Shown here: positions 42,330 through 49,159 of the stretch, one piece after another
Numbering within the stretch: position 1 is the first letter of the stretch
How the letters are laid out: each line of letters starts with the position of its first letter
Origin: Armatimonadia bacterium
GTDB lineage: Bacteria; Armatimonadota; Zipacnadia; Zipacnadales; JABUFB01
DNA: 64,000 nucleotides
Direction: 5' to 3'
Assembly (NCBI GenBank): GCA_039679385.1
Contig: JBDKVB010000075.1
Location: 1-64,000, forward strand
Notes under the pieces: generated by a model
Seen by the model: the letters and a program-made list of their open reading frames with translations, nothing else
The model's database searches: none
What the model was told of the DNA's origin: nothing
Translations under genes and position numbers: made by a program

Positions 42330-42737
42330 TCAGCGTTCACCTTTGCCGCCTGTGAGACGCAGGGCGGCCAGCTTCGTAGACCCCGGTTGCGGCCGTGGGC
42401 GTTGAGCGAGCGCAGGGGCGGAGGTTCCCGTCACCTCGGCCAGAACAGAACTCTCGACCGGCGGCAACTGGGGACACGGCACAACGTCCTGCTGGACTAC
42501 GAGCGTTCTCTGGAGGGTGTCCGCAGTCTGGTAGGGAACGGCGCAAGGGTTCAGGACCAGAGAGAGCTCACGACGTGCCTGCATCTGCTCAAACTTGGCC
42601 TTTGCGAGCTTGTGGTCCATCACACCGACCTGCGCGTCCAGATCCGCAGCACGCCATGCCAGCACGAGGTACCCAAGCGCCATGACGCCCAGCACACCAA
42701 TCGTCACGAAGCCCCTTGCATGGGTGCGGCTAACCAT
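42330..42737 (-). CDS. ftsL: FtsL-like small division protein
   Basis: The 135-residue protein has a short basic cytoplasmic start, one membrane helix (about 10-28) and then a heptad-like stretch (about 30-55, DLDAQVGVMDHKLAKAKFEQ in part) as expected for the FtsL/DivIC coiled coil. The C-terminal 70 residues are proline-rich and low in structure. Sequence similarity to FtsL cannot be judged by eye because the family is very divergent; the call rests on topology and position between rsmH and ftsI. ATG 42737 follows AGGGGG. A promoter lies about 140 bases upstream. Confidence 0.7.
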   Translation of the reverse strand: MVSRTHARGFVTIGVLGVMALGYLVLAWRAADLDAQVGVMDHKLAKAKFEQMQARRELSLVLNPCAVPYQTADTLQRTLVVQQDVVPCPQLPPVESSVLAEVTGTSAPALAQRPRPQPGSTKLAALRLTGGKGER

Positions 42738-42879
42738 CCCAGTACCCCCTGTAGGTCTGGCGGTAGTTCGCCACGGGTCCCCCCATGCCCGGCCGGCTTT
42801 GGCCTGACATGGCACCGTGACCAGAACCACAGCATCTGCGTGTGGGAGGTCGCCGGTCCTTCAGCGTCAGGTACCTAGA

Positions 42880-42909
42880 CACATACCCGGTCGGACCGGC
42901 GGCTGTCAA
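42880..42909 (-). promoter_or_regulatory. Promoter upstream of ftsL (dcw internal promoter)
   Basis: On the minus strand TTGACA, an 18-base spacer and TATGTG stand about 140 bases before the ftsL ATG. A promoter here explains how ftsL to ftsQ can be transcribed although they are separated from mraZ-rsmH. Confidence 0.6.
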
Positions 42910-43089
42910 GACCCCCGTCGAAGCGCGCCCAGCGAATCGACGGAGGAAAGGCCTGCAGAGACGATGCACCGACTGCGACGAGGGCCATTGGGCATGGGTG
43001 AGCGCGCAGGACCCCGCACAGACTGTCGGTACGGCTGGGACGGGCAGGCATCAACTGGCGTGTGTAGAAAGCTTCAACCGTTGGGAACC

Positions 43090-43118
43090 TTGACCGTGAC
43101 TGCGGTGTGTGCTACATT
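43090..43118 (+). promoter_or_regulatory. Plus-strand promoter of the ORF-less unit in dcw
   Basis: TTGACC (43090-43095), a 17-base spacer and TACATT (43113-43118) match vegetative promoter consensus well. It points against the dcw genes, and transcription would start near 43125. Confidence 0.6.
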
Positions 43119-43124
43119 AGCTGC

Positions 43125-43369
43125 GAAGTGTGGTGTGACGCATGAGTGCGGTGGTCTGTTCTTGATCGTTGCTGCGGTGTAGGCTGCGAGGTTGCTGCGG
43201 TAACGGTTGACGCCCGCCTGTCCCTTCTCTCCGATGACGCGGCCTGGAGCGTCGTCGGAAAACTCGGTCTCAGCACCCGCGCGACGAGCACCGAGACGGG
43301 ATTACGTTGGGCACCACTGGCCATTCTCCGTACAGGGGCTCCCTGCCTGAGCAGGGGGCCTTTCTTTTT
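43125..43369 (+). ncRNA. Candidate non-coding RNA between rsmH and ftsL
   Basis: A promoter directly upstream and a strong intrinsic terminator at the end define a transcript of about 245 nt. The longest open frame with an ATG in the first half is only seven codons (from 43142), and the one long plus-strand frame (GTG 43146) runs through the terminator and lacks a ribosome-binding site. Short complementary arms such as ctcggt / accgag around 43262-43302 suggest secondary structure. I do not recognise it as 6S, SRP, tmRNA or RNase P RNA. It converges on rsmH. Transcription start, extent and function are unproven. Confidence 0.45.
43337..43369 (+). terminator. Intrinsic terminator on the plus strand inside dcw
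   Basis: The stem ggctccctgc / gcagggggcc (10 bp including one G-T pair, loop ctga) is followed by tttcttttt. It is oriented to the right, opposite to rsmH and ftsL, so it does not belong to a dcw gene. Confidence 0.88.
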
Positions 43370-43402
43370 GCCTGGCACCTTCCGGACTTGGCGACGCGAC
43401 CC

Positions 43403-44329
43403 TCAGAGCTTCTCGGCGGCATGAAGCCTCACCGAGCGGGCCGCCGGATTGGCACTGACCTCCTCCGCCGTCGGATACAGAGGCTTGGGCGTCAGCACCT
43501 TGATCACGGGTTTCTTATCGCAGGTACAGGGGAGGGCAGGTGGACACTGGCAAGGGTTGGCAAGCCGGCGCAGAAGCTGTCGAGACACACGGTGTTCGGC
43601 GCCGTTCCAACTGAGGACTACCAGCCGGGAGCGAGAGGAGAGGAGACGAAAGGCAGCCTCAATTCCGGCCTCCAACTCTGGGAGTTCTTCATTTACTGCG
43701 GATCGAATCGCCATCAGATAGGGCGCCGCATCGATACGTCGTACGGGCCTAACTCCGGCGACCGCTGCTGCGATGATGTCTGCGAGTTGTGCTGTCGATT
43801 GGATCGCCGAGCGCTCACGCGCCCTTGCGATCCTGGCTGCGACCTTGTGGGCCTCCCGCCCTCTCCCAATACCTGCGAAGATTCGGGCCAAGTCCTTTTC
43901 AAGGTACTCGTTGACAACGCGTGACGCCGTCAAGCTCGTAGCGTCCGAGCGATCCATGCGCATGTCCAGGGACTGCTCGCTATCGACGGAAAAGCCCCGC
44001 ACGGGATCTCGAAGGACGTCCATGGAGATGCCCGCGTCGATCAGGCACCCATCGACCGACCCTATCCCCCGCTCCTCCAGTAACTCCTCAGCCTGCGACA
44101 TCCGCCCATGTATGAGAAGGACCCTCTGCTTCAAATCACCCAAGGCTGCGGCCGCTCGAGACAGGGACTCCGCATCACGATCCAGACCAACGACAAAGGC
44201 ACCATGCTGAACCAGTTGGATCGTGTGCCCGGCCATCCCCAGCGTCATGTCAAGGAAGGTCATGCCCTCGGCAGGCCGGAGGTATTCGACAACCTCATTC
44301 ACCATTGCCGGCAGGTGCACCGGCGACAT
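43403..44329 (-). CDS. rsmH: 16S rRNA (cytosine1402-N4)-methyltransferase RsmH (MraW)
   Basis: RsmH methylates C1402 of 16S rRNA with SAM. The 308-residue protein opens with HLPAMVNEVVEYL, has the SAM-binding strand FLDMTLGMAGHT, the DRDAES strand end and the conserved RGFSVDSEQSLDMRMD segment. It closes with KPLYPTAEEVSANPAARSVRLH. The middle is more divergent than usual (DAGIS instead of DLGVSS), but the overall pattern is unmistakable. Its ATG lies within the end of mraZ (overlap of 35 bases), implying translational coupling. A 665-base spacer separates it from ftsL. Confidence 0.94.
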   Translation of the reverse strand: MSPVHLPAMVNEVVEYLRPAEGMTFLDMTLGMAGHTIQLVQHGAFVVGLDRDAESLSRAAAALGDLKQRVLLIHGRMSQAEELLEERGIGSVDGCLIDAGISMDVLRDPVRGFSVDSEQSLDMRMDRSDATSLTASRVVNEYLEKDLARIFAGIGRGREAHKVAARIARARERSAIQSTAQLADIIAAAVAGVRPVRRIDAAPYLMAIRSAVNEELPELEAGIEAAFRLLSSRSRLVVLSWNGAEHRVSRQLLRRLANPCQCPPALPCTCDKKPVIKVLTPKPLYPTAEEVSANPAARSVRLHAAEKL

Positions 44330-45666: not shown

Positions 45667-45780
45667 CGCCCACACCGAGTCGGATACATATTTCAGGCAA
45701 CCTCGCGGGGACCGAAGCGTCCATAGGCGAGAGCACTGACTCTGCGGTTGCCGTATCACCAGACGGGAGTCTCTTGCGGT

Positions 45781-46803
45781 ATGCCGATTCGCGGACGAGC
45801 ACCGACCAGGATTGACTTCGCCGGCGGAACCACTGATCTGCCGGCCTTCCGGGAGCGTGAAGGCGGTGCCGTGGTCAACGCGGCTATTGACCGCCATGCT
45901 TTCTGCTCCTTGACGCGCAGCAACAACGGGGTGCGGATCACCTCGCAGGACCTCGAGCAGTTTGTCGAGGCCCAGGCCGTGCAGGAGCTGGAGTACGACG
46001 GCAACCTCGACCTGCTCAAGGCGGCCTTGCGTGCGCTTGACCTTCCCGATGGCCTGTGCATCACCGCTCGCTGTGCAGCGCCGCCGGGGTCGGGCACCGG
46101 GTCCTCAGCCTCCATCGGAGTGGCCCTGCTGGGCTTGCTGGATCGTCTCAAGGCCCAGCACAGCCAGGACGCCCGCCACTGCATGTCGCGGTTCGAGGTG
46201 GCCGAGATGGCCTGCAACCTCGAGCAGGACCTCGGCATCATCGGCGGAAAGCAGGACCAGTACGCCGCCGCGGTCGGCGGCATCAACTACATGGAGTTCT
46301 ACGACCGCGGGCGTGTACTCGTGGAGCGTCTCGAGCTTCAGCCCTGGGTGGTGCTGGAGCTACACAAGCACCTGCTCCTGTGCTACTCTGGTCAGTCACG
46401 CCTCTCGGGCGACACGAACCAGCGTATGATCTCAGCCTACGAGGCGGGAGACCCGACGGTCTGCGGAGCCCTGCGGACCGTGAAGCGAGTGGCCCAGGAC
46501 ATGCGCCGGGCACTCCTCGGCGGCGACCTGGACTGGTTCGGCGAGCTGATGGAGGAGGAGTGGCAGGCGCGGCGCAGACTTGCCCCGGGAGTGGTAACGG
46601 AGCGTCTGCAGGCCTTGCGTGATGCCGGCAAGCAGGCAGGAGCCGTGGCAGCCAAGGTCTGTGGCGCGGGTGGTGGCGGGTGCATCTTGTTCCTGTGCCA
46701 ACCGGATGCGGAGGCTGACGTTACCCGTGCCCTGGAGGCCGCCGGAGGGCGTCTTCTGGATTTCGGATTCGACTTCAACGGACTAGAGGTGTGGGAGGCG
46801 TAA
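45781..46803 (+). CDS. GHMP family sugar kinase (heptose/fucose kinase-like)
   Basis: The 340-residue protein begins with APTRIDFAGGTTDLPAF, has the GHMP ATP-binding motif PPGSGTGSSASIG (about 101-113), GKQDQYAAAVGG (about 158-169), and a C-terminal KVCGAGGGGCILFL motif. These resemble D-glycero-D-manno-heptose 7-phosphate kinase and L-fucokinase-type proteins; a precise substrate cannot be assigned. ATG 45781 is used, with GGGAG upstream at a rather long distance. The stop codon overlaps the ATG of the next gene (TAATG), so the two are translationally coupled. Confidence 0.85.
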   Translation: MPIRGRAPTRIDFAGGTTDLPAFREREGGAVVNAAIDRHAFCSLTRSNNGVRITSQDLEQFVEAQAVQELEYDGNLDLLKAALRALDLPDGLCITARCAAPPGSGTGSSASIGVALLGLLDRLKAQHSQDARHCMSRFEVAEMACNLEQDLGIIGGKQDQYAAAVGGINYMEFYDRGRVLVERLELQPWVVLELHKHLLLCYSGQSRLSGDTNQRMISAYEAGDPTVCGALRTVKRVAQDMRRALLGGDLDWFGELMEEEWQARRRLAPGVVTERLQALRDAGKQAGAVAAKVCGAGGGGCILFLCQPDAEADVTRALEAAGGRLLDFGFDFNGLEVWEA

Positions 46804-47596: not shown

Positions 47597-49159
47597 ATGC
47601 GTACCGAGCAGAGTCGGCGCGAGTTCCTTCGTACGGTGGGTGTTGGCGCACTCGGGCTCAGCGGTCTCTCCCATGTGGCCGCTCAGATGGTCCAGCCACG
47701 CGGCGAGCGGCCCCCGAACCTTCTGGTCATCATGTCTGACGAGCACGCCCAGCGGGTGACGGGCTGCTATGGCAACGCGCTTGTGCAGACGCCGAACCTC
47801 GATCGGCTGGCAGCCGAGGGGATCACCTTTGACGCCTGCTACGACGCTTCTCCCCTCTGTGTCCCCTCTCGCCTGGCCTTCACCGCCTGCAAGTACATCA
47901 GTCGCTGCGGCGCGTGGAGCAACAGCACCCGGCTGCCTAGCGACGACTATCCCTCGATCGCCCACGCCATGAATGCCGCCGGGTACGAGTCCTTCCTCTG
48001 CGGCAAGCAGCACTACGATGCTCAGCACCGCTATGGCTTCGTCGATGTCGGTGGCAACATGAACAAGAGTACGATGACCGGTCGCGGCGGCCGTCGCGCT
48101 CCCGACGACCTGCACATCAACGTCGGCGCTCGCGACTCACGGTTCAAGGACTTCCACACGGGCAATCAAAGCGGAACGATGAACCACGACCGCAAGGTGA
48201 CGGCTGGGACTGTGGAGTTTCTCGCGAACCGCAAGCGGACCGACAAGCCCTTCTTCCTCTTCGCCGGCTTCCTGGCGCCGCATTTCCCTCTGACCGTCCC
48301 GGAGGAGTACTGGCAGCGCTACCGCGACAAGGTGACGATGCCGAACCTGCCGCCGGGTCACGTGGAAAGCCAGCCGCTGAACTACCATCATCTGCGTCGC
48401 GGCTTTGGGGTCGTGGAGACCGATCCGCAGATGGTCAAGCTCGGTCGGGAGCTCTACTATGGCCTGACCAACTGGTTCGACGATGAGCTAGGCAAGGTCC
48501 TCGCTGCGCTGCGCGCCAGTGACGTCGCGGACAACACGGTCATCATCTACACCACCGACCATGGCGAGAACCTGGGCGACCACCATCTGTGGTGGAAGAA
48601 CTGCCTGTACGACACGGCAGCCAAGGTCCCGCTCATCCTCCGCTGGCCCGAACGCTGGAAGGGCGGGCAGCGGCGCAGTGGCGTATGCTCCCACCTGGAC
48701 CTGGTGCAGACCATCGCGCAGATCGGCGGCGCGGAGTTGCCCGAGGACTGCGACGGAGACTCCCTGTGCGGCTGGATGGACGACCCCGCTGCGGCCTGGA
48801 AGGATAGGGCGGTGAGCGAGTACTATGCCCACAACATCGCCTCGGGCTATGCCATGATCCGCCAGGGCCGCTACAAGTACGTGTACCACACACGCATGAA
48901 CGACCAGTACGGTCCGCAGCGCCAGCTCTTCGACATGGTGGAAGACCCCGACGAGTTCAGCAACCTCGCGGACGACCCGGCGCAAGCTTTGCGCGTCGAC
49001 CAGCTGCACCGGGCCCTGGTGGCCGAACTGGGCCGAGAGCCCGACGAGACTGAGCAGATCTGCCGCCGCGAGATGGCGGTCGGCTACCCGGATGCACCTC
49101 GGAAGGGTGCCACTCAGGGCGGAGGCAAAGCGCGGCAAGCTCAGGGTGAAGAGGAGTAG
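47597..49159 (+). CDS. Tat-exported type I sulfatase
   Basis: The 520-residue protein starts with a twin-arginine signal (SRREFLRTVGVGAL), so it is exported folded. The sulfatase domain follows with the metal residues in MSDEH (46-50) and the C-x-P-S-R motif CVPSR (88-92). Its cysteine is converted to formylglycine by a maturase not encoded in this window. The DHGENLGDHHLW segment also belongs to the catalytic site. It should remove sulfate esters from sugars or phenols. Location next to sugar enzymes suggests a sulfated glycan. The start is inferred from the Tat signal; GGGAGG lies 12 bases upstream. Confidence 0.92.
   Translation: MRTEQSRREFLRTVGVGALGLSGLSHVAAQMVQPRGERPPNLLVIMSDEHAQRVTGCYGNALVQTPNLDRLAAEGITFDACYDASPLCVPSRLAFTACKYISRCGAWSNSTRLPSDDYPSIAHAMNAAGYESFLCGKQHYDAQHRYGFVDVGGNMNKSTMTGRGGRRAPDDLHINVGARDSRFKDFHTGNQSGTMNHDRKVTAGTVEFLANRKRTDKPFFLFAGFLAPHFPLTVPEEYWQRYRDKVTMPNLPPGHVESQPLNYHHLRRGFGVVETDPQMVKLGRELYYGLTNWFDDELGKVLAALRASDVADNTVIIYTTDHGENLGDHHLWWKNCLYDTAAKVPLILRWPERWKGGQRRSGVCSHLDLVQTIAQIGGAELPEDCDGDSLCGWMDDPAAAWKDRAVSEYYAHNIASGYAMIRQGRYKYVYHTRMNDQYGPQRQLFDMVEDPDEFSNLADDPAQALRVDQLHRALVAELGREPDETEQICRREMAVGYPDAPRKGATQGGGKARQAQGEEE

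Follow-up and report, generated by a model that had tools for sequence, protein, structure and literature searches.

In Zipacnadia, a class of the phylum Armatimonadota that is known from metagenomes of marine sediments (PMC10290634) and to which the DNA analyzed here is assigned, the spacer between rsmH and ftsL of the dcw cluster was found to carry a conserved non-coding unit, which we interpret, with a probability of roughly 0.4, as a lineage-specific unit for a cis-antisense RNA directed at the message of rsmH and ftsL. The anatomy of the unit, its conservation, the strand bias of its promoters and terminators, and its restriction to one locus are apparent from a comparison set of 41 genomes of the order and 46 genomes of the class. 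An earlier note on the same DNA had described an opposite-strand unit at this place; as far as sequences can tell, the unit is confirmed, and it is stronger than was claimed.

Few bacterial gene clusters are as well conserved as the dcw cluster, which is compact as a rule. In the window, that is, the whole stretch of 64,000 nucleotides analyzed here, the rsmH-ftsL spacer is a non-coding segment of 665 bp at positions 42738-43402, and the gap of this length noted earlier is thus borne out by the gene calls. Its left border follows from placing the ftsL start at the ATG at 42737, which is more likely than an alternative call with a GTG start (42330-42830, minus strand). The claim that the spacer has no protein-coding frame also holds: it contains no credible ORF, a 92-aa GTG ORF (43146-43424) reads through the terminator, and no frame matching this ORF was seen in the relatives. 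No conserved frame with coding-type substitutions was found in the unit, where the repeat spacing is off triplets and the frames shift. Outside the dcw cluster, the window contains a sulfatase-like ORF (47597-49159) and a GHMP-kinase-like ORF (45748-46803), both recognized from translation only.

Table 1. Features of the rsmH-ftsL spacer and its neighbours (window positions)
Feature	Position	Strand	Sequence	Remarks
rsmH	43403..44329	-		convergent neighbour of the unit
ftsL	42330..42737	-		divergent neighbour; ATG start at 42737 inferred
Inverted repeat, 5' arm	43037..43055	+	GGGACGGGCAGGCATCAAC	core stem score 32, loop 150 nt
Sigma70-type promoter	43090..43118	+	TTGACC-17-TACATT, extended TG	inside the inverted repeat; on this strand and at this relative place in 22 loci
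Predicted antisense RNA	43125..43369	+		start ~7 nt after the -10 box, end at the terminator; inferred from promoter, terminator and fold
Three 11-12 nt repeats	43169..43203	+	TTGCTGCGGTG / GGCTGCGAGG / TTGCTGCGGTAA	class-wide 12-nt autocorrelation
Inverted repeat, 3' arm	43206..43224	+	GTTGACGCCCGCCTGTCCC	complementary to the 5' arm
Hairpin	43230..43259	+	TCCGATGACGC-GGCCTGGA-GCGTCGTCGGA	counterparts in families f1, f2, f4 and f6
Intrinsic terminator	43334..43369	+	AGGGGCTCCCTGCCTGAGCAGGGGGCCTTT-CTTTTT	34 nt before the rsmH stop

Both the TTGACC/17/TACATT promoter and the intrinsic terminator that the earlier note had placed on the opposite strand were recovered there (Table 1), and the distance of about 245 nt given between them corresponds to the 245 nt from the end of the -10 box to the end of the terminator stem. 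Judged from the window alone, these signals are marginal and near chance: one promoter was found versus 0.2 expected in shuffled sequences, and one terminator versus 0.7. The unit was taken as real because of comparative evidence, namely the strand and position of the promoter, the terminators, and the inverted repeat in diverged relatives. The segment 43125-43370, which covers the predicted RNA, has a folding energy of -113 kcal/mol (z = -3.0).

A DNA similarity search with the unit against 60 relatives matched only the unit itself, and the spacers were therefore taken by synteny from rsmH matches. By this approach, the unit was found at rsmH-ftsL in about 33 diverged Zipacnadia genomes, where it recurs in families f1-f4, f6 and f7, read on the strand opposite rsmH, and probably also in f8. 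Sigma70 promoters scoring at least 9/12 occur in 22 loci on the antisense strand, two of them with 12/12, versus one locus on the sense strand. Intrinsic terminators on the antisense strand near the rsmH stop are present in f1, f4 and part of f3, and no sense-strand terminators were found at that place. The strand opposite rsmH and ftsL is predicted to be transcribed because of these promoters and terminators. The earlier note had accepted in advance that lack of conservation in relatives would count against it; the ORF-less, opposite-strand unit bounded by promoter and terminator is kept. Many loci have a hairpin after the 3' arm, and the distance from the element to the ftsL start ranges from ~20 to 300 nt. 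The pooled pairwise identity is 0.87/0.92 for the arms, 0.80 for the promoter, 0.73 for the loop after the promoter and 0.68 for the loop before it, and 0.60-0.67 for the flanks, some of the flank values being lowered by alignment end effects.

The element is absent from the compact dcw clusters of f9 and f10. In f5, it was not recognized, nor did it appear in those other Armatimonadota, found by an rsmH-alignment search, that were examined. In one genome of another Armatimonadota class (L205, G046), the rsmH-ftsL spacer is filled by different tandem inverted repeats, GGAGTGCCGCAGCAATGCGGC / GAAGCCCGATTGCTCGGGCACTCCGGC.

Two components of the unit were absent from the earlier note: the 12-nt repeats and the inverted repeat formed by 43037-43055 and 43206-43224. 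Inverted-repeat arms of 11-28 bp are present in all loci of the unit, and their core stem scores average 36.4 versus 23.0 in shuffles (sd 3.1, 95th percentile 29), with 30 of the 33 loci above the 95th percentile. The loop length is nearly constant, with a median of 156 nt and an interquartile range of 151-159 versus 102-230 for the null. The arm sequences vary by family (GGTGGGTGCC, GAACGGGCGA, GGGACGAGCGCCC, GGGGCGGAGCCG) but remain complementary; by this comparison of sequences, the arms covary between families. The promoter is enclosed by the inverted repeat in nearly all loci; counted from where the 5' arm begins, it mostly starts after 65-80 nt, and after 53 nt in the window. In f7, the promoter is located just outside the repeat. 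The outer stem is not wholly within the antisense RNA because the 5' arm lies upstream of the predicted start (except in f7). Therefore, the outer inverted repeat, which is the strongest conserved fold, is more than a fold of the 245-nt RNA imagined in the earlier note.

On the plus strand, opposite rsmH and ftsL, the core stem cells comprise 519 Watson-Crick, 9 G-T and 16 A-C combinations. These mismatches do not favour the antisense RNA as a folded molecule, and with 9 G-T versus 16 A-C neither strand is as clearly enriched in G-U as an ordinary RNA helix formed by one strand would be. On either strand, the loop has no more structure than shuffles, and consensus folds do not distinguish the strands. 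A wobble-poor stem of this kind fits either the use of the stem by both complementary RNAs in sense-antisense pairing or an action as DNA. Small inverted repeats that differ in sequence flank the -10 box in L014, L016, L020, L026, L029 and their relatives (CCTGCA..TGCAGG, ACAGGGC..GCCCTGT, GCGGCAAG..CTTGCCGC); in these promoters, the -10 box would fall in a hairpin loop.

The loops across relatives carry a 12-nt periodic repeat close to TTGCTGCGATG. An EM motif search gave only a GCT triplet pattern, and the period was later revealed by autocorrelation, which was applied to 35 loops and gave peaks at lags 12 and 24 (z ~10 and ~5.5, respectively); these z values are upper limits because the sequences are related, and the flanks are flat. 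The spacing of the repeats is often 11 or 13, and in several loci they flank the promoter on both sides. No such arrays were found in the other intergenic DNA of ~449 kb of the window genome, and one weak extra cluster was detected in 400 kb of G002. Repeats of the TGCTGCGAT type also occur in the interval that separates a yggS-like from a sepF-like gene, where they lie on the opposite strand to sepF (L044 / L061, G001:C392 ~2019). At a galactokinase-like gene, CGCAGCATACATCGCAGCA, the complement of the repeat units, stands directly before the Shine-Dalgarno sequence and after a TTGACA..TATAAT promoter (L048, G034:C122 ~30150).

A covariance model built from f3 is not general because it fails on f1, f7 and f8; it matches in 24 of the 46 class genomes, with the best match nearly always at rsmH-ftsL. 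Extra matches in G011 and G018 were considered as further copies and rejected as GCT-rich coding sequence, and further weak matches lie in G023 (C709/C144) and G019 (C10). In G028, a second copy identical to the first in 188 of 216 aligned columns follows an mraZ-like gene and precedes a second ftsL, in the order rsmH - element - ftsL - mraZ-like - second element - second ftsL - ftsI (L192, G028:C350:3400-7400), with no rsmH beside the second copy. This copy is either a real duplication or an assembly mixture; if it is not an artefact of assembly, the element would go with ftsL. Among the off-locus matches read, the element is restricted to rsmH-ftsL apart from the G028 duplicate.

According to the cis-antisense reading, the sigma70 promoter in the spacer would fire away from ftsL and give rise to an untranslated RNA (~245 nt in the window) with one or more hairpins and with 12-nt repeats of the UUGCUGCGAUG type, which would end at the intrinsic terminator close to the rsmH stop. 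The RNA would be complementary to the spacer of a presumed rsmH-ftsL co-transcript and may pair with it; in the window, the predicted target is the spacer itself because the RNA would stop before the rsmH coding sequence. Both arms in the message could close a stem-loop of ~180 nt, of which the antisense RNA could cover one arm and a portion of the loop. As the most likely outcome, ftsL and the later genes (ftsI, murE etc.) would be damped or uncoupled from mraZ-rsmH by antisense pairing and/or head-on transcription. A conserved promoter of its own opposite the target genes, which marks a cis-antisense RNA, is seen in the sequences of the unit but is absent in f6. This family keeps the arms, the repeats and the hairpin without a recognizable sigma70 promoter or terminator, and is a main weak point of the cis-antisense reading. 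In f6, a conserved block, TGGACCGCGTGCCTTGGGG, occupies the place where the sigma70 promoter sits elsewhere (L028, L030, L034, L037, L038, L050, L053, L055, L059), and this block may represent a promoter of a different type, a binding site or a hairpin.

The f6 loci would be accounted for if the conserved stem-loop of ~180 nt served primarily as an element of the rsmH-ftsL message, involved in processing, attenuation or translation coupling, with the antisense promoter added in some families only. Both arms are always in the sense message, the G028 duplicate accompanies ftsL and not rsmH, and with 16 G-U versus 9 A-C the wobbles slightly favour the sense strand, although this ratio is within chance. 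Since the opposite-strand sigma70 promoter and terminators are conserved in most families and the distance to the ftsL start is variable, we regard such a sense-strand element as rather unlikely. The unit might further represent a new class of dcw regulator, in which the promoter lies near the centre of the ~180-bp element of inverted and 12-nt repeats, the antisense RNA and the sense message (or DNA) form a mutually exclusive structural switch on division-gene output, and the whole was invented once within Zipacnadia; we consider this reading unlikely. The repeated, conserved 12-nt units also allow for a small RNA acting in trans, whose UGCUGCGAU repeats would be seeds pairing with AUCGCAGCA near the start codons of other messages, and isolated complementary motifs are located upstream of sepF and next to the galactokinase Shine-Dalgarno sequence in relatives. 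These two cases lie in genomes other than the window's and came from a pattern with matches in only 6 of 46 genomes, and the unit never leaves the rsmH-ftsL locus, which would not be required of a trans-acting RNA; a role of this kind seems quite doubtful.

If the unit acted at the DNA level, the inverted repeat would be either the recombination site of an invertible promoter or a pair of protein-binding sites by which the promoter is looped. The arms are near-perfect, with no clear excess of G-U over A-C, they flank the promoter at a nearly fixed distance, and 12-nt repeats lie on both sides of it in several loci. On the other hand, the promoter and repeats have one orientation in every locus of the assembled sequences, which argues strongly against inversion and makes an invertible promoter unlikely, and the arm sequences change freely, unlike protein sites; overall, we consider a DNA-level element improbable. 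A conserved small membrane peptide encoded on the antisense strand is hardly credible: some relatives allow the loop to be read as codons rich in Val/Ala/Ile/Leu, but peptide coding was rejected because the repeat spacing is often not a multiple of 3, the stops and the frame differ between neighbours, and close copies differ mainly at codon positions 1 and 2 of that frame.

Comparison with known RNA families returned no match to the unit. No Rfam family reached the gathering score anywhere in the window, and a permissive search of the spacer gave sub-threshold matches only, mostly on or around the terminator, so that the covariance search suggested earlier, once run, provided no usable match. 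The anatomy of the unit is matched by no searched Rfam family, and nothing matching an rsmH-ftsL intergenic RNA or an Armatimonadota non-coding RNA was found in the open-access literature. A housekeeping RNA, which the earlier note had left as an option beside its conserved ORF-less unit, was not borne out: tmRNA, 6S, RNase P RNA and SRP RNA are each encoded elsewhere in the window's genome (G000). The analysis points to a lineage-specific non-coding unit with its own predicted promoter, terminator and covarying inverted repeat at one exact place of a usually compact cluster, shared by most families of an order and by relatives beyond that order. In a class known from metagenome-assembled genomes, it gives a concrete and testable locus.

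Several known systems share single features with the unit. The mraW RNA motif, an actinobacterial 5'-UTR motif located upstream of mraW on the sense strand, is a structured RNA that, like the unit, adjoins mraW/rsmH; no Rfam family matched the window. The fimS-type invertible promoters, or invertons, have a promoter within short near-perfect inverted repeats ~150-200 bp apart, as in the unit, which differs by its single orientation among relatives. ParR-like iterons around a promoter are a further likeness. The enterobacterial decRNAs are non-coding RNAs from the dcw operon that arise as sense fragments of coding sequence via RNase processing (PMC6156199); they share the operon with the unit, which differs in being antisense and in having its own predicted promoter. 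In E. coli, StfZ arises antisense at ftsA-ftsZ in three isoforms (366-552 nt), and its overexpression lowers FtsZ (PMC9628754). Both StfZ and the Zipacnadia unit are antisense units of intergenic origin within dcw without an ORF, and StfZ was proposed to tune a division gene. StfZ originates from the ftsA-ftsZ junction, overlaps ftsZ and belongs to a different phylum, whereas the Zipacnadia unit is located at rsmH-ftsL and is distinguished by an inverted repeat that surrounds its promoter and by 12-nt repeats; StfZ has been measured, whereas the Zipacnadia antisense RNA is predicted. StfZ is the nearest functional analogue of the unit and not a homologue, and if the cis-antisense reading is true, the unit would represent a second, independent antisense control within dcw, after StfZ.
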